64,000 nt of DNA from Candidatus Tenderia electrophaga (lineage in GTDB: Bacteria > Pseudomonadota > Gammaproteobacteria > Tenderiales > Tenderiaceae). The position numbers were made by a program, and so were the translations under genes. The DNA lies in contig CP013099.1 of NCBI GenBank assembly GCA_001447805.1, positions 1,302,001 to 1,366,000 of the forward strand. Reading direction: 5' to 3'. Below, piece after piece: positions 5,174 to 20,006 of this stretch (the first letter of the stretch is position 1; each line of letters starts with the position of its first letter). The notes beneath the pieces were generated by a model. It was not told the DNA's origin. It saw only the letters and a list, made by a program, of their open reading frames with translations, and made no database searches.

Positions 5174-5190
5174 CCTGCCTGCCTCGAACC

Positions 5191-5242
5191 TAAAATAAGA
5201 CGTGTCTTTATTTTATCTTTACTGAATATCCTAAAATAAAGA
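5191..5242 (-). promoter_or_regulatory. Operator-like repeats upstream of the first Fic gene
   Basis: The motif TAAAATAA(A)GA occurs three times within 52 bases: as the two arms of a near-palindrome at 5191-5215 and once more at 5232-5242. The sites sit 18 to 70 bases upstream of the Fic start codon, where a promoter would be expected. Because the Fic protein ends in a winged helix, self-repression is an attractive but untested reading. Confidence 0.4.
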
Positions 5243-5571
5243 GCCGGAAAGGATAAATCAAGCGGATTCCCCGATTGGCCGTTTCGATTTCCTCAGACGG
5301 GCGCTCGACGCTGCAACGCCTCTGCTAAAGCGAAAAACGTAACGACCGCGGCTCCGATTTTTCGGTTGCCGGAAAGTTCCTGTTATCGAAGGGTTTCGTC
5401 ATCTTGCATAACCGCTTCCCGCCAACCCGGCCAGAGAAACGAATTTCTCCCCTGATTTCCCGGGCGAGGGTGACGGGTTCGCAGTAACACCGGATACCAG
5501 GCGTCGAGCCGCAACACCTTCGAATCCGGTTTTCGGACGCCGGTTCGGTTGCCAACGTGGAATTGAATTGG
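5243..5571. other. Intergenic stretch without a supported gene
   Basis: About 330 bases between the first Fic gene and the end of the antiporter gene. A 76-codon minus-strand frame (5325-5555) has no recognisable motif, no convincing ribosome site and an Arg/Cys-rich composition, so I do not call it. I see no clear hairpin with a T-run. Confidence 0.5.
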
Positions 5572-6549
5572 CTATGCCTGCCCGCCGAAAACCGTGCTGA
5601 TCAGGTAGGCCGTGTAGCCCACGTAACAGGCCAGCAGCACCGCGCCCTCGATGCGGTTGATACGTCCCGGTCCCCGGAACCCGTAGCCGATGACGAACAG
5701 CGACAGCGTCAGTGCGGCCATCACCAGCATGTCCCGATTGAAGACCTCCGGCCCAACGGCCAGCGGATGAATCGTACCGGCGATCCCCACCACCGCCAGC
5801 GTGTTGAACAGGTTGGAGCCCAGGATATTGCCGAGAGCGATGTCATGCTCTCCTTTGCGAGCGGCAATCACCGACGAGGCCAATTCCGGCAGCGAGGTAC
5901 CCACCGCGACGACGGTCAGGCCGATGATCAGGTCGCTGACTCCGAACCCATGAGCGATCTCCACGGCGCCCCAGACCAGGATGCAGGAGCTCACAATGAG
6001 CAGCACCAACCCCACCACCAGCCAGAAGACCGCCCGGCGGATGGGTATGGCGCGGACGTCCATTTCCTGCTGCATCTCGCTTCCCAGCGCATCCTCTTTC
6101 TTGCGCAGCCCCTGCCAGATGGTCCAGGTCATCAGCCCGCCGAAAACAGCCAGCAGCACGACGGCATCAAGCCGGGTGATCTCACCATCCCAGAGTTGCC
6201 ATGCCGCCAGCGCAGTCACCGCCGCGAGGATAGGCAGCTCCTTGCGCAGCACCTGCGAATGGACGGCGATGGGGCTGATCAAGGCCGTCACCCCCAGGAT
6301 CAGGGCGATGTTGGTGATGTTCGAGCCGTAGGCGTTCCCCAGCGCAATGCCCGGGTTGCCCTGCGAAGCGGCCAGCGCCGACACCACCATCTCCGGCGCG
6401 GAGGTGCCGAACCCGACAATCACCATGCCGATCAGCAGCGGCGGCATACCGAAATGGCGGGCGGTGGAGGCTGATCCCTCCACAAAACGGTCGGCGCTCC
6501 AGACGAGGAGCGCCAAGCCAAAAATTACAGCGACAAAGGCAAGGGTCAT
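5572..6549 (-). CDS. yrbG: Calcium/sodium antiporter of the CaCA family (YrbG-like)
   Basis: 325 residues, almost wholly hydrophobic, with about ten membrane segments. The two inverted alpha repeats of the Ca2+/cation antiporter family are visible: VGFGTSAPEMVVSAL with GNAYGSNITNIALILG in the first half, and VAVGTSLPELASSVI with GNILGSNLFNTLAVVG in the second. The paired Glu residues in these repeats form the ion-binding site in the family. It would exchange Na+ (or H+) for Ca2+ across the inner membrane. I place the start at ATG 6547-6549 (GGAA upstream) rather than at the in-frame start 33 bases earlier, which would add a non-hydrophobic tail. It lies between two Fic genes on the same strand; no functional tie is evident. 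Confidence 0.9.
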   Translation of the reverse strand: MTLAFVAVIFGLALLVWSADRFVEGSASTARHFGMPPLLIGMVIVGFGTSAPEMVVSALAASQGNPGIALGNAYGSNITNIALILGVTALISPIAVHSQVLRKELPILAAVTALAAWQLWDGEITRLDAVVLLAVFGGLMTWTIWQGLRKKEDALGSEMQQEMDVRAIPIRRAVFWLVVGLVLLIVSSCILVWGAVEIAHGFGVSDLIIGLTVVAVGTSLPELASSVIAARKGEHDIALGNILGSNLFNTLAVVGIAGTIHPLAVGPEVFNRDMLVMAALTLSLFVIGYGFRGPGRINRIEGAVLLACYVGYTAYLISTVFGGQA

Positions 6550-6696
6550 ACAGTTCCAGTTCTCATATACAGTCCGGATCATCCGGATTGCCTAAATTTC
6601 ACCCAATGTGGGGTGTGAACCTACTTGGTCGGTACTTGATCGCTGCGTCAGTTATGCCGCAAGCTGTGTCGCGAGTTTGTCGCAAGTATGCCTCTA

Positions 6697-7713
6697 TTAC
6701 TCGTCGGCATGATATTGCAGCCAACGATGGCCTTTATCGGTCAACCGATAGCGCTGAGTCGGGCTGCGCGGGGAATCGGGTTGTGTGCGTTCGATCCATT
6801 CGTCTTCCATGGCCGGATTGAGGTAGTTGTTCCGGAACGTGGGACGGTGTGACAAACCCAAAGCCTGCATCAAATCGTTGCTGCCCAGTTCGCCGTTCCC
6901 AATCGCCTGAATCAATGCCGCTACTTGGTCGGTTACTTGGTCGCCTACATGGTCGGTCGACACAGCTTCGCGCACGGCATCACGCAACGCACCCAGCATG
7001 AACTCGACAAAAGGAGTGGCATCCGCTTGGCTGTCGGCCGCCGCAAGTACCCGGTAATAATCCTCCTGACGATCACGGATCACTGTCTCCACCGGCAGGT
7101 AAGCCAGCAGCGGCTTCCAGTTTCGGAGAATCAGGGTTTGCCACAACCGACCCATGCGGCCGTTGCCGTCGGCAAAGGGGTGGATGAATTCGAACTCGTA
7201 GTGAAAAATGCAACTGGCCACCAAGGGATGCTCGCGGGTAGTTGCAAGCCAATCCAGCAGATCCGCCATCAGCTTGGGCACGCGTTCAGCGGGGGGAGCC
7301 ATGTGAACCAGTTGTTCTCTCCGGAAGATGCCGACCCCGCCGGATCGATATCGACCCGTTTCATCCACCAGCCCGCGCATTAACAACTCGTGCGCCGCCA
7401 GCAAATCATCCTCGACACTGGCGTCCCAGTGCTCCATGGCCTCGTAGGTCGCAAAGGCGTTTCGCACCTCCTGAATCTCGCGGGGGTGTCCCAACACCCG
7501 TTTGCCCTCAATCACGGCGGTCACCTGTTCAAGGGTGAGCGTGTTGTTCTCGATGGCCAGCGACGCCTGGATGGTACGGATGCGGTTCTCCCGGCGCAGG
7601 CGCGGAGTCAGGTTCTGTTCGGCCAGCACGGTGTAGCGGCCGATGGTTTCGCCAATCTCTGCGACCAGATTCACTATCGCCGGGGTGATGGTGTAGGGTG
7701 GCTGATATTTCAT
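6697..7713 (-). CDS. Second Fic-family protein with C-terminal HTH
   Basis: 338 residues from the ATG at 7711-7713, which has GAGGGA seven bases upstream; an upstream in-frame start at 7749 lacks a site. The catalytic signature HPFADGNGRMGR is at residues 178-189. The inhibitory motif SLAIEN (51-56) fits (S/T)xxxE(G/N), so this enzyme too looks autoinhibited. The last 80 residues (GSNDLMQALGLSHRPTFRNNYL, then YRLTDKGHRW) look like a winged helix. It differs clearly in sequence from the Fic at 4004-5173, so the two are not a recent duplication. It follows hsdR by 220 bases on the same strand and could belong to the defence unit; Fic genes are common riders in restriction-modification loci. Confidence 0.9.
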   Translation of the reverse strand: MKYQPPYTITPAIVNLVAEIGETIGRYTVLAEQNLTPRLRRENRIRTIQASLAIENNTLTLEQVTAVIEGKRVLGHPREIQEVRNAFATYEAMEHWDASVEDDLLAAHELLMRGLVDETGRYRSGGVGIFRREQLVHMAPPAERVPKLMADLLDWLATTREHPLVASCIFHYEFEFIHPFADGNGRMGRLWQTLILRNWKPLLAYLPVETVIRDRQEDYYRVLAAADSQADATPFVEFMLGALRDAVREAVSTDHVGDQVTDQVAALIQAIGNGELGSNDLMQALGLSHRPTFRNNYLNPAMEDEWIERTQPDSPRSPTQRYRLTDKGHRWLQYHADE

Positions 7714-7876
7714 ATTGCATCCCTCGCTGATTGAAATATCCGAAACCATGTCGTGAAGTTGTCGAAACTTTGACCCGGTTCAACACGAAGCCAAACAGAC
7801 CGAGCCCACTCGATGCGGGTGATTGCGGAGGTCTGCCGCCTGGCACTGGTGAACTCGGGCTGAAATATGGGCTTCC

Positions 7877-7932
7877 TCAATAGTTCTTGTAAAACGCTTC
7901 GGCGTTGAACTTGACGAACTCCTCATCCCTTC
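7877..7932 (-). other. Open tail in a shifted frame just after hsdR
   Basis: Directly after the hsdR stop codon, a different reading frame stays open for about 18 codons (RRDEEFVKFNAEAFYKNY) and then stops at 7877-7879. The residues look protein-like. It could be the former HsdR C-terminus lost by a frameshift, or chance. The rest of 7714-7876 holds no gene I can support. Confidence 0.2.
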
Positions 7933-10887
7933 TCAGTAGTACTGCCGGATATATCCGAACGCCTTGTCGAACAGATCCTGGTCTTTAACCTTGTATTTTA
8001 CGTAGATCACCTTCCGAAGATGTTGCTGAATGAGACGCTCGCCTTTGAGAGTATTCTGCCATCCATCGAACCTGACATTTCTAACAATCTCGTCAATATC
8101 ATTGACAATCCGCTCGACTACTACCGGCGTTTCCCCGTTCTTCACCTCGGCGAACAGTTCGGTCAGGGCCGCTTTGGCCTTGGCCTGTTCATCGACCGGG
8201 TCCACCTGCTTCTCGGCCTGGACGACTTCCTTGGCCAGGGTCAGCAACTCCTTGAGGAAGTCGAGGCTGTGGAGCAGGCCCTGTTCGTGCCGTTCCTTGA
8301 GCTTTTCGAGGCGTTCGCCCAGGGCGACAAACTTCGGATTGTCCTTGTGCTTGCGCAGGCGGGCGATGAGCTTGATCTCGATTTCCTTGGATTTCTTGTC
8401 CGCGTCCTTGGCATCGAGCAGCCCTTCGAGGACCTCGGCGTCCATCACCAGGGTGTCCAGATCGTCGCGCACCGTTTCCAGATGCACGTTCTCATGCACC
8501 AGTTCGATGGTCTTGGCCCCCAGGGCGTGCCAAAGCAGCTTGCCGTTACCGCTCGGCGGCTTCACCGACTCATAGACCTGGGTCAGCCACTTGTAGTCCT
8601 TTTCATAAAGGCCGAGACAGGGGTCGGGAGACAGCGCCTCCCACAGACGGGAGAGCACCGAGTATTCCGCCGCGAATTTGTCCCGGGTCTCGTTATCCGG
8701 CAGGCAATCCTGCGCCGCGATCAGCCCCTCGTAGCCGCCAACGGTGCGGTCCACGCCAGGGAAGAACGCCAGGCATCTCGCCACCACGCCGGGCAGCTCC
8801 TTCTTGAGCTCGTCCAGATTGCTGATGACCTTCTGCACCGCCTTTTCATCGAAATCGAGGGCCGTGGCCACGTCATCGAAAATGCCCAGATAATCGACGA
8901 TCAGGCCGTGGGTCTTGCCGGGGTAGACACGGTTGGTGCGGCAGATGGCCTGCAGCAGGTTGTGGTCCTTCATCGGCTTGTCGAGGTACATCACCTGAAG
9001 AATGGGCGCATCGAAACCGGTCAGGAGCTTGGAGGTGACGATCAGGAACTTGAGCGGGTCAATCGGATCGCGGAAACGGTCGAGGAGTTTTTCCTCCTCG
9101 TCCTTGGCCAGCTTCCATTCCGCGTACTGATCGGACTTGCCGCCCTGGGTGTGCATGACGATGGCGCTGGCCTCCGGGCCGACCAACTCGTCCATGGCCT
9201 TCTTGTTAAGCACGCAGCACTCCCGGTCGAAGGTCACCACCTGGGCCTTGAAGCCGTTCGGCTCCACCTTCTCCTGGAAGTGCTTGACAATGTGTTGGCA
9301 GATGGCGTTCACTCGCACCGGGGCCTTGATCAGCACCGCCATCTTGGCGGCCCGCTTGGCCAAATCGTCACGATCCAGCTCGCTCAGCTCATCGGTCATC
9401 TGAGAGTAGGCTTCGTCGATGGCGTCCTTGTTAATGTGCAGCTTCACGTCCACCGCCTCGAAATGGAGCGGCAGCGTGGCCTTGTCCCGGATCGAGTCCT
9501 GGAACGAGTAGCGGCTCATATAGCCTTGCTCATCCTCGTCCGCGCCGAAGGCCCAGAAGGTGTTGCGGTCCCGCTTGTTGATCGGCGTGCCGGTCAGGCC
9601 AAAGAGAAAGGCGTTGGGCAGCGCGTCGCGCATCTTGCGGCCTAAGTCGCCTTCCTGGGTGCGGTGCGCCTCGTCCACCATCACGATAATGTTCGAGCGC
9701 TCGTTCAGGCGGCCATCCGCCTCGCCAAATTTGTGAATGGTGGTGATGATGATCTTGCGGGTATCGGCCGCCAGCAGGCTTTGCAGTTCCTGCCGGGTGG
9801 CCGCTCCGATCATGTTCGGGATATCGGCGGCGTTGAAGGTGGCGGTGATCTGGGTGTCCAGATCGATGCGGTCCACCACGATCATCACCGTGGGGTTGCC
9901 GAGCTTGCGGTGCATCCGCAGCTTCTGCGCCGCGAACACCATTAGCAGCGACTTGCCCGAACCCTGGAAATGCCAGATCAGGCCCTTCTTGGGGTAGCCC
10001 TTGACCACGCGGGCCACCATCAGGTTAGCGCCTTCGTACTGTTGATAGCGGCAAATGATCTTGATGCGCCGGTGTTTCTTGTCGGTGGCGAACAGGGTGA
10101 AGTTCTGCAGGATGTCCAGCACCACATGGGGGCGCAGCATGGAGCGGATGGAACGCTGCACATCCGCAAGCGTCCCCTCGGCCTTGTTCTCGCCTTCGTG
10201 CCACGGCCCCCAGATATCGATGGGCATGCGTACCGAGCCGTAGCGATAGCACTTGCCCTCGGTGGCAAAGGAGAGGACGTTGGGCACGAACATCTGTGGC
10301 ACGCTCTGTTCGTAGCCGTTGTGGATGTCGCTGGCCCCGTCCATCCAGGTCACCGCCGGGCGCACCGGCGTTTTGGCCTCGCCGACCACCAGCGGGATGC
10401 CGTTGACCAGCATGACAATGTCGAAGCGGCGGCCGCCTTCCTTGACCGGGTAAACCCACTGGTTGGTGACCACGTAATCGTTGTTGCTGAGATTCTCGAA
10501 GTCGATCAGGCGCACCGGCGTATGTTCGCCGCGCTCACCGAAGGGCATGGACTTCTCGCCCCGCAGCCATTCGGCGAACAGCTCGTTGGCCCGCACCAGG
10601 CCTTCGCTCTGTACCGACAGCGGAATGGTTCGCAGGCGGTAGAGCACCTCGTCGGCGCGGTCTGGCTGGGCCTTGATTTCCGGGTTCAGGCGGATGAGGG
10701 CGTCGCGCACCATCGACTCCACCACCACGTCGGAGTGCTGGCGGGGCAGCTCCTCGGCGGCCACGAAGCGCCAGCCTTTTATCTCGCCGCCATAACTGGC
10801 AAGCTCTTCGGCAACCATGTTCGAAGTCACGCCGCCGCAGAGCGTGTCGAGAACCATCTGTTCGACCGTATTTTCTTCGTTAAACAC
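7933..10887 (-). CDS. hsdR: Type I restriction endonuclease, R (motor and nuclease) subunit
   Basis: 984 residues. The N-terminal PD-(D/E)xK nuclease is visible as D156 and E170-A-K172 (VVGEAK). The SF2 translocase follows: Walker A GSGKS at 309-313, DEAH at 405-408, a TGTPI motif, and later LLTGFDAP and AICRTNRVYPGK. The coiled C-terminal region is the usual HsdM-docking part. With HsdM and HsdS it would form the R2M2S complex that translocates and cuts unmodified DNA. The start is GTG at 10885-10887, preceded by GAGGAGG at good spacing, and it overlaps the end of hsdS by eight bases. It is the last of the overlapping genes of the unit. The end is followed by an open shifted frame (7877-7932), so slight C-terminal truncation is possible. 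Confidence 0.95.
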   Translation of the reverse strand: MFNEENTVEQMVLDTLCGGVTSNMVAEELASYGGEIKGWRFVAAEELPRQHSDVVVESMVRDALIRLNPEIKAQPDRADEVLYRLRTIPLSVQSEGLVRANELFAEWLRGEKSMPFGERGEHTPVRLIDFENLSNNDYVVTNQWVYPVKEGGRRFDIVMLVNGIPLVVGEAKTPVRPAVTWMDGASDIHNGYEQSVPQMFVPNVLSFATEGKCYRYGSVRMPIDIWGPWHEGENKAEGTLADVQRSIRSMLRPHVVLDILQNFTLFATDKKHRRIKIICRYQQYEGANLMVARVVKGYPKKGLIWHFQGSGKSLLMVFAAQKLRMHRKLGNPTVMIVVDRIDLDTQITATFNAADIPNMIGAATRQELQSLLAADTRKIIITTIHKFGEADGRLNERSNIIVMVDEAHRTQEGDLGRKMRDALPNAFLFGLTGTPINKRDRNTFWAFGADEDEQGYMSRYSFQDSIRDKATLPLHFEAVDVKLHINKDAIDEAYSQMTDELSELDRDDLAKRAAKMAVLIKAPVRVNAICQHIVKHFQEKVEPNGFKAQVVTFDRECCVLNKKAMDELVGPEASAIVMHTQGGKSDQYAEWKLAKDEEEKLLDRFRDPIDPLKFLIVTSKLLTGFDAPILQVMYLDKPMKDHNLLQAICRTNRVYPGKTHGLIVDYLGIFDDVATALDFDEKAVQKVISNLDELKKELPGVVARCLAFFPGVDRTVGGYEGLIAAQDCLPDNETRDKFAAEYSVLSRLWEALSPDPCLGLYEKDYKWLTQVYESVKPPSGNGKLLWHALGAKTIELVHENVHLETVRDDLDTLVMDAEVLEGLLDAKDADKKSKEIEIKLIARLRKHKDNPKFVALGERLEKLKERHEQGLLHSLDFLKELLTLAKEVVQAEKQVDPVDEQAKAKAALTELFAEVKNGETPVVVERIVNDIDEIVRNVRFDGWQNTLKGERLIQQHLRKVIYVKYKVKDQDLFDKAFGYIRQYY

Positions 10888-12037
10888 AGAGTGCCTCCTC
10901 GGAGAGGCCAGTATTGATTATGGATCGCCTCAATTCAGACAGTGCGTCGATATGTACTGCGATAGCTTGCCTGGCCTTATCCCACTGGCAAGCTATTTTC
11001 TCAATATTATTTCTCTCTTCCTCTGGTGGGACGGGAATAAGATGCTCCGTAAGCCACGATTTTCGTATGTGAACTAGCTCCTTCTTAAAGCCATGTGCAT
11101 CCTTTTCTACTTCGGACGTTATGAGCTGCAAAATTTCAAACAGCCATCTTTTGCCGATACTTGAATTTGGCTCAATCTTAAAAATGTGCTGATTGAGACC
11201 ACCGGTAGGCCCATCCCAGATACGAGGACCAAAAGACATTCCTTTAACACCGGCCCAGGCGTATAAAAGCTGGCCGGGTCGTACTAACCATCGTTCTTCC
11301 AGCTCACCATCAAAATGATTAAATTCTCTAGAACCATTCAGGTTCTGGATTCTGATTATCGGGTACCCACTCTGTGACCACTCGGACGACTTAAACCCTC
11401 TACCATTGCTAAAAGAACAGAGTTGGCCAATTGGCTTTTCTTCCCATCCTCGCCCCCCAGCTTTCAGTCTTACAGCAATATCCAAGCGGTAAGCATTCTC
11501 AGCTTCGGCTCTGCATGTTTTCCAGTATTCAAACGCCTCATCCGCCGCCAACAGGATCTCGGCAATGCGCTTCTGTTCATCAAGCGGTGGCAGCGGGAAT
11601 TCAAAGTCCTTCAATGCCGTCCAACTGGTTCTCGGTGACAGCGAACCGGCTGAGGTGCCAAGTGCATGATCAAAAAAGGCATCGCTCTGGCAGATAAATG
11701 GCAGAAGCTCGGGCAGTAGAACCTTTCTGTTTTTCGGCTCGAACGTCAGGATGTCCCCGGAGCAAATGCCTTCAAACTCGGCATAGGCGACCTTGCGTTG
11801 ATAGGCCCGGCGCTTGCCGAAAAGCGTCTGTCCCGGTACGAATTTGCGGGTAAACGAGGTGCCATCCGCAACGGAGTTCCAGCGACGGATATGCAGATTC
11901 TCGGGGTCGATGTGTTCAAGCCCGACGATTCTTTCAACGCCATTGGTCTCGGGATCTCGCTCCACAAGATTGGCGTTCTTCACCACCTCGCCGAACTTGA
12001 CCATCTTCCAGCCGGGCTTGAGTTGGCTGCCTGTCAT
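10880..12037 (-). CDS. hsdS: Type I restriction-modification specificity subunit
   Basis: 385 residues arranged as two target-recognition domains (about 1-145 and 195-335), each followed by a conserved spacer. The first spacer has PLPPLDEQKRIAEIL (149-163), a hallmark of HsdS; the second reads PVPPEEERNNIEKI. This double layout specifies a bipartite DNA target. The gene overlaps the protease stop by ATGA at 12034-12037 and overlaps hsdR by eight bases. Base composition of the second half (about 10900-11500 on the plus strand) is visibly more AT-rich than the flanking genes, consistent with exchange of the second recognition domain. There is only one hsdS for two hsdM genes. Confidence 0.93.
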   Translation of the reverse strand: MTGSQLKPGWKMVKFGEVVKNANLVERDPETNGVERIVGLEHIDPENLHIRRWNSVADGTSFTRKFVPGQTLFGKRRAYQRKVAYAEFEGICSGDILTFEPKNRKVLLPELLPFICQSDAFFDHALGTSAGSLSPRTSWTALKDFEFPLPPLDEQKRIAEILLAADEAFEYWKTCRAEAENAYRLDIAVRLKAGGRGWEEKPIGQLCSFSNGRGFKSSEWSQSGYPIIRIQNLNGSREFNHFDGELEERWLVRPGQLLYAWAGVKGMSFGPRIWDGPTGGLNQHIFKIEPNSSIGKRWLFEILQLITSEVEKDAHGFKKELVHIRKSWLTEHLIPVPPEEERNNIEKIACQWDKARQAIAVHIDALSELRRSIINTGLSEEALCV

Positions 12038-14382
12038 ACCTTGACCCTCACAGGCAGTCTCGCCTCTAGTTGCATCTTGACTCTTGAATAGAGTCGCGCC
12101 TCCTCATTTTCCTGGTCACGCAGGCTGACCACCAGAGAATACGCTTCTTCGGTGTCGCACAAATTGTCACCCCAGGGAAAGTCATTCCGGGTCACGACGA
12201 CAAAGAGCTTCTGGTTGCGCAGTTTGGATTTGGCGTTGAATTGTCGGAAGCGCCAGAAATCGGCCTGGACCGTGCCCTTGCTGCGTGCCTGCTGGCCAAT
12301 GGTGGCGGTCTTCAGTTCGGGGATGTTCTCGTAGTCATCCTTCTCGGTTGCCTTGTTGAACATGGTGGTGACGTGCTCCAGATCAGGCGCAGTGACCAGG
12401 CGGAAATCAATGCGAGTTGCACGGTATTTGACCCGGGTTGATCGAACCGGCGGCGTGTAGGCGAGCGCAACGGCAATTTCTCTCAGACGGCGTTTGCCAC
12501 CACTGACGAACTCATCGGGAATGGGAATTTCATAGAAGTGGTGGCGTTTGTTCCCGATGGGACCGCGCGCAATCAGCGTCACGGCATTTTCCAGTGAGCG
12601 ATGAAGAGATTCCTCATTCACTTGTCCATAGCCGCAGACGCTCCTGAACGACTTGTCCTGTTTGATCAGCTTCTGGCTGGCCTCTGGCATAAAGGCGTTC
12701 AGACAGAGCAACGCCCGGATGAAATTGGCGTCGGCATCGGGATGTTCAAGAAGAATGGAGGCGGCCAGATGCGCGACCTGTGGCGCGGCCATGCTGGTGC
12801 CAATATCAACGGCGAAGGGATGACCTTTTGCGAATTGATGGTTCGTTGAAACGACGCCCAGTCCAGCGACACGCTCCATAAGCGAATGGCTGGCCCGCGT
12901 ATTGATGGCCCAGTTGCCGCCGTGTGCCAGAAGCTCTGGCTTGATGGCACCGTCAACGGAATATCCGCCTCGGGTGAAAGGCGATGGTTGCTCAGGTTGA
13001 GCAATCGGCACCTCTGACGGATCGTGGGTGTGGGTCTGACTGTTCCAGCTTTGGTTATGCCGCGCCAAGCTGCCCACGGTGAGAGCATTTAATGCGGGAG
13101 CAGGATCAACGATTCGCCAGGCATCGTCCAGCAAGTAATTCGGGTAGTTGTCCCGCCACTCCAACCCATCAGGAGACTCCTCACCAATGCGATGGTTGCC
13201 CGCAGACACCACGAACAGGACGTTCAGTTCCCGAGAGAGGGTATCCAAGGTTACGGAAAGTCCTTTCAGATGGCTGCCGTTATAAGGTTTGTTCGCATCA
13301 CCCAATGAGAGATTGAAGATTCGGCAGCCGTGTTGTTCTACAAAGTGACGTACTGCCTTTTCAATGTGGTTCTCAACAAAACCGGTTGCATTGTTGTCTT
13401 TGTCGAGGACTCTGCCGCTGAACAGGCGCAGAGTTGGGACGAAAGCACCGGCGCGCAAGTGGCGCTCGAAGTCCCCATAGAGAGCCAGACCTGCGACATG
13501 GGTGCCATGGCCATTCTCGTCATGGGCTCCTTCTCCTGGCAGGAAGCTCTGTGCATCCCCGATGGCAGAACCCAACAGAGGATGACCGGTCGCAAGCCCG
13601 CTATCCAGGACAACGATGCCTGGTGCTTCCTCACCCGGATCGGGAATCTCTGAGAAATTCTGTATATCCTGAAAAACAACTGATCGTTCCAGACCAAAGC
13701 TGGGAGGCAGGTCAACCGTACGTACATCGCGGTGGCGGAGGAGCTGTTCTGCCTGATCGGGGTTGCAGAGAACGCGGCAAAGGGTCAATCCTGGCTGCTT
13801 GACCTGATCCTTTTTCTCAATGCCTTGCCGCTTCAGCCATTCTTCGAACTTGGCCCACTCCTGATCGCGTCCCTGGTGGTTATCTTCAAGGGGCCAGAGT
13901 TCGACATCAATCAGGAACTCATCGGATTCCGGGAATCCCTGCTTTCTGAGAGCCCACCCTCTGCGATCCTCGGCGCTCCAACCATCGATACTTTGCAGGG
14001 CATAAATAACCTGCTTATTCGTGACATCGCCACCACTAGCCATAGTGGAAAGTCGCGCTTCAAATTGGGCAAGAGCGGCATTGCTGGCAAAACCAATAAC
14101 AACCGTTTCATCCTCTTGGCTGACAAATTCGATCTCGGTTGAAATCTTTCGAAGATCCTCGGGGTTGAATCCCTTATGTACCGTAAACCGGAATAATTTA
14201 CGGTCATCGAAACCGCCCACATCACTGGCAGACTGCTCTTTGGCGTTGGCGAGCTTCTGCAACAGCCCTCGCCCGTGTCCACGGACATCGCTTGGAGGCG
14301 GCGGTGGCCTATACTCGCGAGATCGCTTCTCGTTGACCGGCGCTTCCCGCTGGATGGTGAGGTGGGGAAAGGTCTCTTCCAT
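12034..14382 (-). CDS. ietS: Subtilisin-like (S8) serine protease, IetS-like
   Basis: 782 residues, no signal peptide and no membrane segment, so cytoplasmic. The S8 triad is complete: D260 in VVLDSG, H292 in GHGTHVAG, S530 in GTSMAAP, with the oxyanion Asn at 396 (SAGNH). A 255-residue N-terminal part and a 240-residue C-terminal part have no motif I know. An AAA+ ATPase gene precedes it by six bases, and an AAA ATPase plus S8 protease pair is the make-up of the IetAS anti-phage system, so I use that name by architecture. Start ATG 14380-14382 with GAGGAG upstream. It ends in an ATGA overlap with hsdS, which places it physically inside the type I restriction operon. Substrate unknown: phage protein, host protein, or HsdR itself are all possible. 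Confidence 0.85.
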   Translation of the reverse strand: MEETFPHLTIQREAPVNEKRSREYRPPPPPSDVRGHGRGLLQKLANAKEQSASDVGGFDDRKLFRFTVHKGFNPEDLRKISTEIEFVSQEDETVVIGFASNAALAQFEARLSTMASGGDVTNKQVIYALQSIDGWSAEDRRGWALRKQGFPESDEFLIDVELWPLEDNHQGRDQEWAKFEEWLKRQGIEKKDQVKQPGLTLCRVLCNPDQAEQLLRHRDVRTVDLPPSFGLERSVVFQDIQNFSEIPDPGEEAPGIVVLDSGLATGHPLLGSAIGDAQSFLPGEGAHDENGHGTHVAGLALYGDFERHLRAGAFVPTLRLFSGRVLDKDNNATGFVENHIEKAVRHFVEQHGCRIFNLSLGDANKPYNGSHLKGLSVTLDTLSRELNVLFVVSAGNHRIGEESPDGLEWRDNYPNYLLDDAWRIVDPAPALNALTVGSLARHNQSWNSQTHTHDPSEVPIAQPEQPSPFTRGGYSVDGAIKPELLAHGGNWAINTRASHSLMERVAGLGVVSTNHQFAKGHPFAVDIGTSMAAPQVAHLAASILLEHPDADANFIRALLCLNAFMPEASQKLIKQDKSFRSVCGYGQVNEESLHRSLENAVTLIARGPIGNKRHHFYEIPIPDEFVSGGKRRLREIAVALAYTPPVRSTRVKYRATRIDFRLVTAPDLEHVTTMFNKATEKDDYENIPELKTATIGQQARSKGTVQADFWRFRQFNAKSKLRNQKLFVVVTRNDFPWGDNLCDTEEAYSLVVSLRDQENEEARLYSRVKMQLEARLPVRVKV

Positions 14383-14388
14383 GATCGA

Positions 14389-15384
14389 TTAGCTCCTCTT
14401 GGTACGTGCTCTACGAGCATCCTCGCGTTTGATGGCCGATTGCAGGTGACGCTCACTGAGGAACTCTTTCCCCGCCAGAACCATATCTTTCGCGGCACGG
14501 CGCAAAACGCGTTCCACGTCGGCGTGACTCATGCCTTTGAACAACGTTGCTATACGGGCATCGTCAATTTCGAATTCCCTACGAAGCCCGCGGAGCTTGA
14601 CTGACAATAAGCGACGCAACTGTTCAAGGTTTGGCGATTCAAAAACCAGCACCTCATCAAATCGCCGCCAAACGGCGGAATCGAGAATACGTTCATGGTT
14701 GGTTGCCGCCACCAGAATGCTCTTACCCTCATACGCATCGAGCATCTGGAGGAAAGCATTCACTACGCGCTTCAGTTCGCCGTGTTCCGCCTCATCTGAA
14801 CGTTCCTTGGCCATTGCATCAAATTCATCGAACAAAACCACCATTGGCACGGTAGAGACGAAATCGAAAACTTGCCGCAGATTGGCCGCTGTTTCGCCAA
14901 GGAGTGACGAAATCACGCTGTCAATGCGCACGATGGCGAGGGGTAAGCCAAGCTCACTAGCGAGGACTTCAGCAGTCAGGGTTTTTCCGCATCCCGGAGG
15001 ACCGCAAAACAGTATTTTGTCTGCTGGGTGCAAGCCATAACTCTGCAATGTCTCGACCCGGTGATGCTCCTGCAGTAGTTCATCCAGGAGTGAGGCGTTT
15101 TCATCTGAAAGCACAACGTCTTCCAGACGCCTTACCGGCTCCTTGATCTGCAACAGTGGAAGGTTCCGGTCTTTATCTTTAGGCAAACGGTCGTTTAACA
15201 CAGAATGCAGTGGCGCGGAGGTGCTACGACGCCCATAAAGAATTTTTTCCAGATCATTCGCCAGCAGGTGATGGTTCTTGGCTCGCTCTTCCAGGATCAG
15301 TTGCTCGGATACGCGCTTGAACGCTTCATGGTTACCTTCCGATCCTGTTTTAACTAGCTGCCTCAGTAGCTTAGCTGTTGCCAT
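14389..15384 (-). CDS. ietA: AAA+ ATPase, IetA-like partner of the S8 protease
   Basis: 331 residues. A single AAA+ module: Walker A GPPGCGKT (128-135), Walker B VVLFDEFDA (182-190), sensor 1 AATNH (226-230), then the Arg pair at 240-241 where the arginine finger is expected, and a C-terminal lid helix bundle. The first 110 residues are helical and presumably bind the substrate or partner. Start ATG 15382-15384 with AGGAG eight bases upstream. It follows the second hsdM by 45 bases and precedes the protease by six. By analogy to known ATPase-protease couples it probably recognises or unfolds what the S8 protease cuts. The IetA name rests on architecture and pairing, not on a computed match. 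Confidence 0.85.
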   Translation of the reverse strand: MATAKLLRQLVKTGSEGNHEAFKRVSEQLILEERAKNHHLLANDLEKILYGRRSTSAPLHSVLNDRLPKDKDRNLPLLQIKEPVRRLEDVVLSDENASLLDELLQEHHRVETLQSYGLHPADKILFCGPPGCGKTLTAEVLASELGLPLAIVRIDSVISSLLGETAANLRQVFDFVSTVPMVVLFDEFDAMAKERSDEAEHGELKRVVNAFLQMLDAYEGKSILVAATNHERILDSAVWRRFDEVLVFESPNLEQLRRLLSVKLRGLRREFEIDDARIATLFKGMSHADVERVLRRAAKDMVLAGKEFLSERHLQSAIKREDARRARTKRS

Positions 15385-15429
15385 ATTTGTTCTCCTGTTT
15401 CACCTATTCTCCCATGTCACGCTATTGTC

Positions 15430-16968
15430 TTACTGGATCATTTTCGTGGCATCACGAAAATGATCCGTTTGTTGTTCAAGCACCTCAAAAAGATCATCCA
15501 TCGACTCCCGCAAGGCCATCGAGCTTTGCTGCCAGTTTGCTATGGCCTGTTTGAGGCTGACGGTTTCGGTCGCGCCGTTGCCATTGCCATTTCCGTTGTC
15601 CGCCCGCACGTAGAGCGGGATGCTGAGGTTGCTGGCTTTCTCCCGGATCTCGTCATTGCTGACCACCCGGGCAAAGCCGTCCTCGTCGTCAAAGGCCTGA
15701 TAGGCGGAGACAATGCGCTGGAGGTGGTCGTCGGTGAGGAAGCTCTGTGCCCTCTCGCGGGTCACCTCGTTCACCGCGTTGATGAAGAGCACCTTGTTTC
15801 TGCGCTCCTTGGGCTTATTCATGCGGCAGATGACGACGCAGGCTTCCATGGGTGAGTTATAAAAGAGGTTAGGACCGAGGCCCAGCACACACTCCACCAC
15901 GTCGTGGGCGACCAGTTTCTCGCGCATGGCCGACTCTTCGTTGCGGAAGAGGACGCCATGCGGAAACAGGATGGCGCAGCGGCCACTCTTGGCCTTCATG
16001 CTCTTGATGATGTGCTGCCAGAAGGCGTAGTCGGCGCGGCCCTGGGGCGGGGTGCCGTAGATGTTTCGGCCCCACGGATCGGCGGACCAGGCATCGCGGT
16101 CCCACTGTTTGATGGAGTACGGCGGATTGGCCAGGACCACATCGAACTGCATGAGCCGGTCGCCTTCGACAAAGGCGGGATTGGCCAGGGTGTCGCCACG
16201 GACGATACGGAAGTCCTCAATGCCGTGCAGGAACAGGTTCATCCGGCCGATGGCGGAGGTGAGCAGGTTGCGCTCCTGGCCGAACAGCCGCAGATTCCGC
16301 CACTCCTTGTGCTGCCGTTTCAGATGGGCGACGGCGGACAGCAGCATGCCTGCCGAACCACAGGTGGGATCATAGATCGACTCACCCGGTTTGGGTTCGA
16401 GCATCTCGGTCATCAGATGAACCACGGTGCGGTTGGTATAGAACTCCGCAGCGGTGTGGCCGGAATCGTCGGCGAACTTTTTGATCAGAAACTCGTAGCC
16501 CACGCCCAGCTCATCCTCCGGGCAGTTGGAGAGCGAAAGCGTCTGCGAGCTGAAATGCTCGATGAGCTCGCGCAGCATGTGATCCGGCAGGCGGTCCTTG
16601 TTGGTCCACTGAGCATCGCCAAAGACCCCATACAGGGTGTCGGGGTTGGCTGTTTCAATCGCCCGCAGAGAGTCCTGGATAGCCTTGCCCACGTTCTTGA
16701 CCTTGGTGCGGGTAACCTTCCAGTGGGCGTCCTCCGGGATCTGGAATCGATGCTGCTCGGGAAGCGCGGCGTATTCCTGATCGCCGCCGGACTCCTCCAG
16801 CGCATCGGCCAGCTCCTCGTCATAGACGTCGCACAGGCGCTTGTAGAACAGCAGCGGGAAGATGAACTGCTTGTAGTCCCCGGCGTCAATGTATCCGCGC
16901 AGCAAGGTGGCCGCGCCCCAGAGGTAGGATTCCAGCTCCGATTGGGAAATGTGTTTGCTTTTCTTCAT
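15430..16968 (-). CDS. hsdM: Second type I N6-adenine DNA methyltransferase subunit
   Basis: 512 residues from the ATG at 16966-16968, chosen because it gives the same ATGA overlap with the preceding gene as at the other junctions; another ATG lies six codons upstream. HsdM_N helical domain (10-150), then the methylase fold with SAM motif I DPTCGSAGM (200-208) and catalytic motif IV NPPY (281-284). Motif I departs from the usual DPxxGTGG by Ser-Ala. The C-terminal 40 residues form a helical tail after a GNGNGNG linker. It is clearly homologous over its whole length to the upstream HsdM (both share FGDAQWTNKDRL and RMNLFLHG) but well diverged. With a single hsdS, it may form a mixed M1-M2-S enzyme or one of the two may be regulatory. 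Confidence 0.92.
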   Translation of the reverse strand: MKKSKHISQSELESYLWGAATLLRGYIDAGDYKQFIFPLLFYKRLCDVYDEELADALEESGGDQEYAALPEQHRFQIPEDAHWKVTRTKVKNVGKAIQDSLRAIETANPDTLYGVFGDAQWTNKDRLPDHMLRELIEHFSSQTLSLSNCPEDELGVGYEFLIKKFADDSGHTAAEFYTNRTVVHLMTEMLEPKPGESIYDPTCGSAGMLLSAVAHLKRQHKEWRNLRLFGQERNLLTSAIGRMNLFLHGIEDFRIVRGDTLANPAFVEGDRLMQFDVVLANPPYSIKQWDRDAWSADPWGRNIYGTPPQGRADYAFWQHIIKSMKAKSGRCAILFPHGVLFRNEESAMREKLVAHDVVECVLGLGPNLFYNSPMEACVVICRMNKPKERRNKVLFINAVNEVTRERAQSFLTDDHLQRIVSAYQAFDDEDGFARVVSNDEIREKASNLSIPLYVRADNGNGNGNGATETVSLKQAIANWQQSSMALRESMDDLFEVLEQQTDHFRDATKMIQ

Positions 16969-17192
16969 CGCGCTACTACTTCCCATTCAGAAATGTCCGT
17001 TGGAATATCGACGCCATCCAGGGAGTCCCAGTCGTAATCGCCGGTCGCCTGCATGTAGACGTCATCGGCGGCCGCCATGGCCGAGTGATAAGAGCCGAGC
17101 AGGTCATCCTTGAACCACAGCCCCCAGCGACCGTTGGCTTGCGGTTTAATGAGGAAAAGACCGATGGGCGACCTGTACTGATACACCTTCAT
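16965..17192 (-). CDS. Small protein of unknown function between the two hsdM genes
   Basis: 75 residues, acidic at the C-terminus, with aromatic-rich core (SPIGLFLIKPQANGRWGLWF, then LGSYHSAMAAADDVYMQATG, then DWDSL). No family name is known to me. It overlaps hsdM1 by ATGA at its start and hsdM2 by ATGA at its end, so it is translationally coupled to both methylases and almost surely real. I infer a role tied to the methylase or restriction complex, such as an assembly factor or a controller, but nothing in the sequence shows it. Confidence 0.75.
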   Translation of the reverse strand: MKVYQYRSPIGLFLIKPQANGRWGLWFKDDLLGSYHSAMAAADDVYMQATGDYDWDSLDGVDIPTDISEWEVVAR

Positions 17193-18706
17193 AGCAGGCC
17201 CTCCCGGATCAGCAGTCCTTTCAGGCGATCTTCAGCCGCATACGCCGCCTGCAACGATTCCTTGAGGTTGACGATGGCCTGATCGATGGTCATGGATTCT
17301 TCCTCGATCACCGGCTCCACGTAGCGGGGGATGTTCAGGTTGAAATCGTTCTCGCGGATCTCGTCGAGCGTGACCACCCGGCAGATCCCTTCCACATCCT
17401 GATAGCCCTCGTACCAGCGATGGATGTTGTCCACGTGTTCCGGCAGTAGCTCGTTCTGGGCGCGACCGGTCTTGAACTCCTTGGAGGCGTCGATGAACAG
17501 CACCTTCTGGCGGTGGGCCTTGGGCTTGCTGTCGCGGAAGACCAGAACACAGGGCGCGAGACCGGTGCCGTAGAAAATGTTCTGACCGAGGCCGATCACC
17601 GCTTCGAGCATGTCCATCTCCAGCAGCTTGCGCCGAATCTCGCCCTCCTTGGACATGCGGAACAGCACGCCATGGGGAAGCACCACAGCCATGCGGCCGG
17701 TCTTGCGGGCCATGGACTTGATCATGTGCTGGACCCAGGCGAAGTCACCGGACTTGGCTGGCGGCAGCCCGGCAAAGTTGCGGCCGTAGGGGTCGTTGAT
17801 CCAGACATCATCTCCCCACTTTTCCAGGGAAAATGGAGGATTGGCGATGACGCAGTCAAAGGTGGCGAGGCTGTCGCCTGAATAAAAGGCGGGCAATCGC
17901 AGGGTGTCGCCGCGTTCGATATGGAAATCTTCCGCGCCGTGGAGAAAAAGGTTCATCCGGGCGATGGAGGATGTGGTCAGGTTCTTTTCCTGGCCGTAGA
18001 GCTTGCCCAGCATGAGGTTCTCGTCGCCGCCATGCTCTTTGACATGATGTAGAGCTTCGAGGAGCATGCCGCCGGTCCCGCAGGCCGGGTCATAAATGGT
18101 TTCTCCGGCCTTGGGCGCAAGGATGCGAACCATCAGCGCGACCACAGAACGCGGGGTATAGAATTCACCGGCCTTCTTGTTGGTCAGGTCGGCAAATTTC
18201 TTGATCAGGTATTCATAGGCCTGGCCGAGAATGTCCGCCTTGCAGTGCTCATTGCCCAGGTTGAGCGACGAGAAGTGTTCGATCAGGTCCTTGAGCAGTG
18301 CGTCCGAAAGGCGGTCCTTGTTGGTCCACTGGGCATCGCCGAAAATGCCGTGCAGGGTGTCCGGGTTGGCCTGCTCGATGCAGCGCATGGCCTTCTGGAG
18401 AGCATGGCCGATATTGGCGCTCTTGGCCCGGACATCTTTCCAGTGGCAGCCCTCCGGAACCTGGAACCGGTGGTTCTCGGGGAACTGGGCAAATTCCACA
18501 TCGCCGTCGGACTCTTCCAGTGCCACGGCATACTCCTCGTCGTAGACATCGGAGAGCCGCTTGAAGAACAAGAGCGGGAAGATGTAGGTCTTGAAGTCGG
18601 CCGCGTCGACAGGGCCGCGCAGGATATTGGCCGCCTCCCAGAGATGCCCGGAGAGGGTCCCGATATCCAGATCGACTGAATTATTATTTCCGTTCTTCCT
18701 GCTCAT
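17189..18706 (-). CDS. hsdM: Type I N6-adenine DNA methyltransferase subunit (first copy)
   Basis: 505 residues. N-terminal HsdM_N helical domain (15-155), SAM-binding motif I DPACGTGGM (206-214) in its canonical form, and motif IV NPPF (289-292), the active site for N6-adenine transfer. Typical HsdM length. The start overlaps the HTH gene by ATGA at 18703-18706 and the stop overlaps the 75-residue gene by ATGA. Motif I is a better match to the family than in the second copy, so this is the safer candidate for the catalytic modification subunit. It would methylate the bipartite site chosen by the HsdS encoded 5 kb downstream. Confidence 0.95.
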   Translation of the reverse strand: MSRKNGNNNSVDLDIGTLSGHLWEAANILRGPVDAADFKTYIFPLLFFKRLSDVYDEEYAVALEESDGDVEFAQFPENHRFQVPEGCHWKDVRAKSANIGHALQKAMRCIEQANPDTLHGIFGDAQWTNKDRLSDALLKDLIEHFSSLNLGNEHCKADILGQAYEYLIKKFADLTNKKAGEFYTPRSVVALMVRILAPKAGETIYDPACGTGGMLLEALHHVKEHGGDENLMLGKLYGQEKNLTTSSIARMNLFLHGAEDFHIERGDTLRLPAFYSGDSLATFDCVIANPPFSLEKWGDDVWINDPYGRNFAGLPPAKSGDFAWVQHMIKSMARKTGRMAVVLPHGVLFRMSKEGEIRRKLLEMDMLEAVIGLGQNIFYGTGLAPCVLVFRDSKPKAHRQKVLFIDASKEFKTGRAQNELLPEHVDNIHRWYEGYQDVEGICRVVTLDEIRENDFNLNIPRYVEPVIEEESMTIDQAIVNLKESLQAAYAAEDRLKGLLIREGLL

Positions 18707-18912
18707 TCAGCTTGATCCTGTCTGCTCTTGTCCGCCGCACCGCCAGCCTTCACCCACTCGTCAACCTCGTCTTTCTTGAACTTCCAAAGACGGCCCATGC
18801 GATGGGCGGGCATCGCATGCTTGTCGATCCAGCGGTAGACGGTGTCACTGCTGACACCGAGGTACTTGCCTATCTCGTCTACTGATAACCAGCGGTCTTC
18901 TATCTCGGCCAT
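18703..18912 (-). CDS. Excisionase-type helix-turn-helix DNA-binding protein
   Basis: 69 residues from the ATG at 18910-18912, which has GAGGA at good spacing; the longer frame to 19020 lacks a ribosome site. The sequence WLSVDEIGKYLGVSSDTVYR followed by HRMGRLWKFKKDEVDEWVKA is the MerR-like excisionase fold: HTH then a short wing ending in the KFKKDEVDEW motif. It is the first gene of the defence operon and overlaps hsdM1 by ATGA. Proteins of this type occur at the head of type I restriction loci and are probable transcription regulators; a palindrome sits at the predicted transcription start. Confidence 0.85.
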   Translation of the reverse strand: MAEIEDRWLSVDEIGKYLGVSSDTVYRWIDKHAMPAHRMGRLWKFKKDEVDEWVKAGGAADKSRQDQAE

Positions 18913-18994
18913 ATCTCTATCCTCATGGGCGATTGGTTTTCTTGCCACGCCAGAGGCGGTAACGGGGGATGCTGAGCGCAACTTCCCCAACTTA

Positions 18995-19005
18995 AAACGT
19001 CGTTT
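18995..19005 (-). promoter_or_regulatory. Palindrome at the transcription start of the defence operon
   Basis: AAACGTCGTTT is an exact odd palindrome immediately downstream of the -10 box, covering the expected transcription start. This is a classic operator position for a repressor; the HTH protein encoded as the first gene is the obvious candidate, by inference. Confidence 0.4.
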
Positions 19006-19034
19006 AATATATTTAGGCAATGGCCGATTGTAAA
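19006..19034 (-). promoter_or_regulatory. Sigma70-type promoter of the defence operon
   Basis: Reading the minus strand, a -35 box TTTACA (19034-19029) and a -10 box TATATT (19011-19006) are separated by exactly 17 bases; each matches the consensus in five of six positions. The start would be near 18999, leaving a leader of about 87 bases before the HTH gene. I see no other promoter of similar quality inside the operon. Confidence 0.6.
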
Positions 19035-19123
19035 ACGATTTCGTCCGGATAAGACCGCAAAAGTCGGCTCACGGGTGTAACCAATGGCGGCTGATTTCCC
19101 GTTCAGCGGGATGAAATCCCACT

Positions 19124-19435
19124 TCACCTATCTCGGCGTAGTGCGATGACGATCCCGGCGCGGATGGGATGGTTGTTGCAGTTATTGACCTCGTTGCCCC
19201 GGGTGCGCCTGCGGATATGCATCATGAAGATGGTGGTCTCATTGGCGATCTGCCCGAGCAGCTCCTGGAACGGCTTCTCGCACACCAGCTCGTGCGCCCG
19301 CATCGGCCGCTTGAGATCCGGGCCAGAGTAAAGAATGGCTGGAGAATAGGGAGGATTGATGGTGCGGCGAGGTGCTAGGGAAAGATGTAAAACGGGCGCA
19401 ACCCCCTTTGGAAAAAAGGAGAAAAAGAAAACCCG
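19124..19435 (-). pseudogene. Open-frame remnant with a methylase-like NPPY stretch
   Basis: A minus-strand frame is open from 19435 to a TGA at 19124-19126. The nearest ATG (19303) gives 59 residues (MRAHELVCEKPFQELLGQ and so on). Codons from about 19360 on are strongly GC3-biased like real genes here, and the residues upstream of the ATG include INPPYSPAILYSG, which resembles the catalytic NPPY motif of adenine methylases. No complete domain is present, and there is no good start. I read it as the tail of a gene cut off by recombination near the ssrA attachment site. Coincidence is possible. Confidence 0.3.
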
Positions 19436-19485
19436 TTACCCCGGCGAATGGCCCCGGAGAGACGGATTTGTCTTTTTTTTAAATA

Positions 19486-19504
19486 GTGGAGGCGGCGGGG
19501 ATCG
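19486..19504 (-). repeat. Exact copy of the ssrA 3' end (attachment-site scar)
   Basis: GTGGAGGCGGCGGGGATCG, 19 bases, is identical to 19646-19664 inside ssrA and in the same orientation. The tmRNA 3' end is a favoured target for phage and island integrases, and integration leaves a direct repeat of this region. Only 160 bases separate the two copies. See the findings for what this may mean. Confidence 0.6.
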
Positions 19505-19538
19505 GCACTTAGAATCCCTTCGGGCTTCATCAAGTGTA

Positions 19539-19637
19539 CCTCAACCACTTCCAGTGGTTCGAGGCAACCCGGAACGCGGGCTCTCACCCGGCACCACCGC
19601 CACCAAATAAAAAAGGGCTGCCTGTCGGCAACCCTTG
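19539..19637 (-). other. Hairpin-rich spacer between the att copy and ssrA
   Basis: The spacer contains a perfect AACCACT-TCC-AGTGGTT hairpin (extended by CCTC/GAGG, about 19539-19564) and further GC-rich repeats, then the ssrA terminator. No gene is supported between 19436 and 19643. Confidence 0.4.
19607..19637 (-). terminator. Intrinsic terminator of ssrA
   Basis: On the minus strand AAGGGTTGCC, loop GACA, GGCAGCCC, then TTTTTT: an 8-pair stem (one G-T) followed by a T-run, directly after the CCA end of tmRNA. The inverted repeat actually extends outward to the CCACC sequence at 19599 and the tmRNA 3' end, giving about 23 nearly paired bases. Confidence 0.8.
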
Positions 19638-19643
19638 TTTATT

Positions 19644-20006
19644 TGGTGGAGGCGGCGGGGATCGAACCCGCGTCCGCAAATCCTCTGCCTTCGGCTCTAC
19701 ATGCTTATCCCGGTCTATTCATTTAACCGCATGCTACCCGACGGGCAGGGAAAACATACGGCGAGTTTGGTTTAGGTTTTAACCAATCCACCCCAAACGA
19801 GCTTCATGGCGAGCTTGTATGAGTCGACCCCGGTTGACCAAGCGTACAAGCACACATTGGGCCGAGGGCACCCTACCGGGTTTTAAGCGGCGAGTGCGTA
19901 GTTGTCTTCGTTGGCAACTATGAATTTGCGAATGGTTTTACGAGGTTATCCGCACCTCGGCATGCACCTTGGGTTTCGCGATCCACGTCGAAGCCAAATC
20001 GCCCCC
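19644..20006 (-). ncRNA. ssrA: tmRNA
   Basis: 363 nt. The 5' end GGGGGCG (20006-20000) pairs with CGCCTCC before the encoded ACCA (ending at 19644), forming the tRNA-like acceptor. The conserved 5' block GCGAAACCCAAGGTGCATGCCGAG-type sequence follows. The tag reading frame runs from 19915 down to 19883: GCC AAC GAA GAC AAC TAC GCA CTC GCC GCT TAA, encoding ANEDNYALAA. The T-arm near the 3' end reads GGGTTCGATCCC. tmRNA rescues stalled ribosomes with SmpB, encoded 1.6 kb upstream. A -10-like TACAAT is at about 20027-20032 on the minus strand. The 3' end is duplicated at 19486-19504. Confidence 0.97.
19646..19664 (-). repeat. Attachment-site copy inside the ssrA 3' end
   Basis: The 19 bases identical to 19486-19504; they cover the 3' strand of the acceptor stem and part of the T-arm, the segment normally used as attB by ssrA-specific integrases. 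Confidence 0.6.

Follow-up and report, generated by a model that had tools for sequence, protein, structure and literature searches.

The window, the whole 64,000-nt stretch of DNA analyzed here, carries on its reverse strand an operon of seven genes (HTH gene, hsdM1, hsdM2, ietA, ietS, hsdS, and hsdR, in this order), in which the genes for an AAA ATPase and a subtilisin-like protease lie between those for subunits of a type I restriction-modification (RM) system. A sequence-only reading of this DNA had described the protease and the ATPase as partners; the pair is real, and both open reading frames lie exactly where they had been placed (12034-14382 and 14389-15384, both on the reverse strand), but the type I restriction operon around them had been overlooked. 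The genes are as follows:

18703..19020, reverse strand: HTH gene (HTH_17/excisionase-like), the operon's first gene and a possible regulator (Pfam HTH_17, E 6.7e-16)
17189..18706, reverse strand: hsdM1, type I methyltransferase subunit with NPPF, predicted m6A (best solved relative 7vru_A, E 1.6e-183)
15430..16986, reverse strand: hsdM2, type I methyltransferase subunit with NPPY, predicted m4C (PADLOC MTase_I; best solved relative 7vru_B, E 2.1e-198)
14389..15384, reverse strand: ietA, classical AAA ATPase of 331 aa, predicted antitoxin/regulator (PADLOC; invariant Walker motifs and arginine fingers)
12034..14382, reverse strand: ietS, S8 (subtilisin-like) serine protease of 782 aa, predicted toxin/effector (PADLOC, Pfam; invariant triad)
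10880..12037, reverse strand: hsdS, specificity subunit (Methylase_S, E 1.4e-20)
7933..10887, reverse strand: hsdR, restriction/translocase subunit of 984 aa with a GTG start (NCBIfam TIGR00348, E 1.2e-152, above cut-off)

The HTH gene and hsdM1 overlap by 4 nt, ietS and hsdS by 4 nt (the ATG of hsdS sits on the stop codon of ietS, as ATGA), and hsdS and hsdR by 8 nt. The spacers measure 202 nt between hsdM1 and hsdM2, 45 nt between hsdM2 and ietA, and 6 nt between ietA and ietS.

The restriction operon and its surroundings

A non-canonical m6A/m4C subtype of type I RM systems has been defined by a pair of M subunits carrying NPPF and NPPY (PMC9613975). Because HsdM1 of the window carries NPPF and HsdM2 carries NPPY, motifs present in 13 of 13 orthologues of each, we assign the operon to this known subtype, represented by PacII (7VRU), and predict m6A on one strand and m4C on the other; both distinct M subunits, as well as hsdS and hsdR, are encoded in the operon. 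The window operon resembles the PacII system in combining NPPF and NPPY subunits with one S and one R subunit, and differs from it in holding ietAS between hsdM2 and hsdS. In an HsdM tree that covered Pseudomonadota together with plasmids from Streptomyces and Exiguobacterium, the M1 and M2 subunits are paralogues forming 2 reciprocally monophyletic clades (support 100/100). This monophyly had raised the possibility of a new paired-HsdM system, which was dropped given the published subtype and the 7VRU structure. MADS was also considered: NCBIfam and PADLOC models matched mad1 (HTH), mad2 (MTase), mad5 (HsdS), and, marginally, mad8 (IetA) in the operon, and mad3, mad4, mad6, and mad7 had no match among the seven operon proteins. 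This assignment was rejected because the mad1-mad8 set is incomplete and type I RM models far outscore the mad models for the methyltransferases and HsdS.

Near the operon, 2 Fic/DOC-family genes (4004-5173 and 6697-7749), one of them with a Fic-like C-terminal domain, flank a sodium/calcium exchanger gene. The tmRNA 3′ end is repeated exactly over 18 bp (19486-19503 and 19646-19663); the repeat lies 160 bp downstream of the gene and forms an attachment-site-like footprint adjoining the restriction operon. A mobile island with an integrase at the tmRNA was rejected, since the repeat pattern is found nowhere else in the genome and the 64,000-nt window has no Pfam phage-integrase match.

The IetAS pair and its family

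IetS matches the PADLOC IetS profile PDLC02198 over its full length (residues 4-780, E 1.6e-259), and IetA, encoded directly upstream, matches PDLC02196 (E 1.1e-101). Within the proteins, IetS residues 256-586 correspond to Peptidase_S8 (E 4.9e-38) and IetA residues 124-249 to AAA (E 2.3e-30) in Pfam. The catalytic residues of IetS, D260 in VVLDSG, H292 in NGHGTH, N396 in SAGNH, and S530 in GTSMAAP, are invariant in an alignment of 15 sequences (IetS and 14 homologues, 51-93% identity). Likewise, the Walker A (GPPGCGKT, 128-135) and Walker B (LFDEFD, 184-189) motifs of IetA, its sensor-1 region ATNHE, and its double arginine (RRF, 240-242) are invariant among 16 IetA sequences, the alignment of which has a mean column identity of 82%. 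The full-length profile match, the upstream ATPase gene, and the intact triad and AAA motifs place the pair in the IetAS family; we accordingly identify it as the known IetAS toxin–antitoxin/anti-phage system and not as a novel pairing. The NCBIfam IteA and IteS equivalog models, which are narrower than IetAS, hit below their curated cut-offs (261.6/510 and 130.7/900 bits), so that the window pair is a diverged branch of the family, outside the equivalog group of characterized members. The ietA–ietS pairing is kept in every IetS locus fetched and is thus not due to chance.

No hydrophobic stretch was seen on inspection of the IetS N terminus (MEETFPHLTIQREAPVNEKRS...), which makes a cytoplasmic location reasonable. 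The structure model of IetS, of moderate confidence in this region, resolves the N-terminal 255 residues into 2 beta-alpha-beta-beta-alpha-beta units (63-134 and 156-222); the catalytic domain comes next, and a beta-rich domain makes up the C-terminal part. As a lead only, the modeled N-terminal units would share the topology of a subtilisin prodomain and would provide a built-in restraint besides IetA. By sequence, the Pfam I9 prodomain gave no match in the IetS N terminus even at E 5; such a domain is suggested by the modeled topology alone. The mean pLDDT of the IetS model is 63, and its catalytic site is poor, with many residues below 50. The best solved Foldseek match is ProN-Tk-SP, a subtilase with a propeptide (E 9.6e-15), at an rmsd of 25, so the domain arrangement is not interpretable; a viral fold search with the model returned mainly generic subtilases. 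The IetA model is too poor for use (mean pLDDT 64, pTM 0.43). Several claims of the sequence-only reading can be set against these results. The intact S8 triad with its asparagine, the intact Walker A, Walker B, and arginine-finger region of the ATPase, and the lack of an export signal on the protease all agree with the alignments and the N-terminal inspection. The description of IetS as lacking an obvious propeptide cleavage site may be incomplete, as the modeled N terminus, at moderate confidence, is prodomain-like.

IetAS appears in defense catalogues as an anti-phage system and was reportedly presented as such by Gao et al. in 2020. A 2025 paper tied IetAS to phage resistance in Pseudomonas and called the mechanism unknown (PMC11878078). 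For IetAS of pTiC58, toxicity lies with the protease and the ATPase serves as its antitoxin, according to Yamamoto 2009 as cited in PMC8562856. The same roles were found for the SgiAT pair of SGI1 in Escherichia coli, in which the subtilisin homologue SgiT acts as toxin and SgiA, the AAA homologue, as antitoxin (PMC5006074). With the Mycoplasma pair T133/A132, induction of the protease in E. coli led to a 3-log loss of viability, and co-expression of A132 with T133 fully neutralized the killing (PMC8562856). The pattern proposed from the sequence, an internal protease restrained by its ATPase partner, is therefore one established in the relatives pTiC58 IetAS, SgiAT, and T133/A132. That proposal was right for the family, although it had not recognized the known system; by analogy, the same control model would be essentially right here. 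The toxin–antitoxin and anti-phage readings may not both hold for every IetAS member. Like IetAS as known from pTiC58 and PADLOC, the window pair consists of the same 2 proteins, ATPase first and protease second, with intact active sites; it differs in having 29% identity to an Agrobacterium tumefaciens plasmid copy and in its position within a type I restriction operon. SgiAT and TA132/133 share with it the combination of an AAA antitoxin and an S8 toxin, which in those 2 cases has been tested genetically. As far as their available descriptions extend, neither the Salmonella island pair nor the chromosomal Mycoplasma pair is embedded in a restriction operon, unlike the pair in the window.

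Recurrence of ietAS between hsdM2 and hsdS

A natural empty site is provided by locus L069 (genome G377, of the same class but a different family), which has the same operon without ietAS. Its HsdM1, HsdM2, and HsdR are 96.6%, 97.2%, and 95.7% identical in amino acid sequence to those of the window, and the DNA is 92% identical. In blastn comparisons, homology to the window ends at 15476 and restarts at 12019, and the segment absent from L069 is:

12034..15475, reverse strand: ietAS, with the last hsdM2 codons and the 45-nt ietA leader (blastn)

At the empty junction, hsdM2 and hsdS overlap by ATGA. The window has retained this junction, but between ietS and hsdS, and the last codons of hsdM2 differ from those of L069. 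The third-position GC content (GC3) of ietA (0.55) and ietS (0.60) is low compared with that of hsdM1, hsdM2, and hsdR (0.79-0.83); because hsdS (0.54) and the HTH gene (0.60) are likewise low, ietAS would not stand out by composition alone. A separate difference concerns hsdS itself (10880-12037), in which 93% DNA identity to L069 is limited to the first approximately 486 nt; the remainder is dissimilar, which would fit a swap of the second target-recognition half.

We sampled 299 genomes of the phylum, 12 of which had a close IetS; under the thresholds used, 9 had an hsdM1–hsdM2 operon. Both were present in 4 genomes, each of which had ietAS between hsdM2 and hsdS (the window, L051, L053, and L054, which is the same locus as L008), a count biased by inclusion of the window genome as the source of the case; the other 3 belong to a single class, are not fully independent, and represent lineages other than that of the window. 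All 4 embedded copies are coupled to hsdS by ATGA. The IetAS tree rejected a single clade of embedded copies (p-AU 9.5e-63), the window pair grouping instead with free copies (94% over IetA and IetS jointly for L003). In the HsdM tree, the window operon grouped with the empty L069, apart from the other embedded operons (p-AU 1.4e-82). Two separate insertions into the hsdM2–hsdS gap are the simplest reading of these sequence comparisons, with one ancient insertion followed by several losses as a possible alternative. The trees, together with the empty site, show that the ietAS module moves between loci as a unit and entered this gap at least twice, a count that assumes gains over repeated losses.

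Other operon relatives carry different cargo in the gap. L062 encodes there an HTH-ImmA/IrrE-like protein related to PD-Lambda-2_B, and L063 and L064 encode Pfam-similar proteins. The gap in L062 (11423-12860) and L063 (4665-6102) consists of a 116-aa ORF and the gene for the HTH-ImmA/IrrE protease-like protein; in L064 (11934-13082), a similar HTH-ImmA/IrrE gene follows hsdM2. These proteins could be another regulatory protease at the same place. In L061, the gap holds the gene for a 423-aa protein without a recognized family. This operon relative is heavily loaded (4465-20000), with a DUF4062-ATPase gene between hsdM1 and hsdM2 and PDC-M11A and SIR2-HerA genes between hsdS and hsdR. The gap is without cargo in L065 and in the plasmids L072 and L073.

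Two free copies of ietAS bear footprints of restriction operons. The copy in L003 is 91% identical to the window ietAS at the DNA level and is followed by a scrap of hsdS:

12009..12037, reverse strand: first 29 nt of the window-type hsdS, also found 3′ of the free ietAS of L003 (DNA comparison)

Direct repeats of 62 bp, 97% alike, flank the L003 cassette (8894-8955 and 12364-12425). Because the hsdS scrap and the 62-bp repeat share AAGCCCGGCTG, the sequence suggests that this cassette left a restriction operon by short-homology recombination. Upstream of the free copy in L011, a stretch aligns to the 3′ region of hsdM2 in L008, and a 28-nt hsdS scrap lies downstream; both alignments outscore 200 of 200 shuffles. 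The hsd remnants in L003 and L011 therefore indicate that ietAS moves between embedded and free states. In L010, L011, and L057, free ietS seems interrupted by a stop codon or frame break beside an intact ietA (assembly errors are possible), which would fit a toxin that is the first to decay after leaving the operon. Methylation-based defense systems near free copies include Hma (L003), type III RM (L006 and L007), and BREX genes (L017).

Proposed role and known systems

We consider it probable that the window holds a complete IetAS module as defense cargo in an m6A/m4C type I operon, acting as a suicidal second layer and as a stabilizer of the operon. IetS would be a cytoplasmic subtilisin-like protease, toxic when free, and IetA an AAA ATPase that restrains it, as is the case in the relatives. 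This balance would be upset when a phage infects the cell or the locus is lost, and proteolysis by IetS would then halt the cell through growth arrest or death. The embedded pair would be co-expressed with the restriction enzyme, ietS probably being translationally coupled to hsdS through the ATGA overlap, and would both add the second, suicidal layer of defense and make loss of the operon costly.

It is somewhat less than even in our estimation that the pair is a mere passenger, with ietAS and the restriction operon adjoining through the clustering of defense genes and the embedding having no functional consequence. The differing cargo in the gap across operon relatives, the free copies near many other defense systems, and the frequency of embedded defense genes, such as DarTG2 in a type I system and TgvAB, all fit this account; against it, the co-directional insertion and the retained ATGA overlap imply at least shared expression, and the same pair has used one gap repeatedly, in 2 lineages. 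We think it unlikely that the HsdM/S complex silences IetAS, so that phage anti-restriction proteins attacking the enzyme release IetS and cause cell death, and equally doubt the specific form in which IetA reads the state of HsdM/HsdS and Ocr, ArdA, or other proteins free IetS to kill or stall the infected cell. PrrC, encoded in the type IC locus EcoPrrI, offers a precedent by sensing the inhibition of its enzyme (PMC12707154), and the reuse of one slot in 2 operon lineages, the ATGA coupling to hsdS in 4 of 4 embedded copies, and the occurrence of family members beside methylation-based systems (Hma, type III RM, and BREX) point the same way. However, IetAS also occurs free of restriction operons and its relatives work alone as toxin–antitoxin pairs, making a restriction partner dispensable for the module, and the slot also takes unrelated cargo (the ImmA-type HTH proteins of L062-L064), which better fits a general cargo site. 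Dedicated control of restriction, in which IetAS would degrade HsdR to counter self-restriction as ClpXP does for EcoKI, is highly improbable: a protease with an AAA partner does lie within the operon, and alleviation of restriction through ClpXP has been described for type IA/IB enzymes, but this operon also occurs without ietAS (L069 and the plasmids L072 and L073), ietAS occurs without the operon, and the relatives are toxic if unrestrained.

As defense cargo, IetAS in the window joins toxin–antitoxin and defense modules already known from type I operons, to which it adds a case with a proteolytic effector. In the literature searched, the coverage of which leaves out preprints and most subscription papers, we found no description of IetAS embedded in a type I operon of the m6A/m4C subtype. 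The parts are known; the value lies in an arrangement that makes the roles of cargo, stabilizer, and guard testable, through a natural experiment in which 2 versions of the operon, one carrying ietAS and one lacking it, are available (92% nucleotide identity) and one gap has been filled repeatedly. The DarTG2 toxin is an ADP-ribosyltransferase. In a type I island of EPEC, DarTG2 lies between hsdS and hsdR and is controlled by RptR, a small regulator (PMC12255303), and TgvAB is an embedded defense module in a Vibrio type I operon (PMC12409362). The EPEC locus resembles the window in that its toxin–antitoxin pair is embedded in a type I operon whose first gene encodes a small DNA-binding protein, and differs in its toxin and in the site of the pair. 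EcoPrrI-PrrC likewise encodes a suicide effector within a type I operon, as predicted here; PrrC is a tRNA nuclease that senses enzyme inhibition, whereas the predicted effector in the window is a protease. If IetS were indeed released upon inhibition of the restriction complex, it would be the proteolytic counterpart of PrrC.
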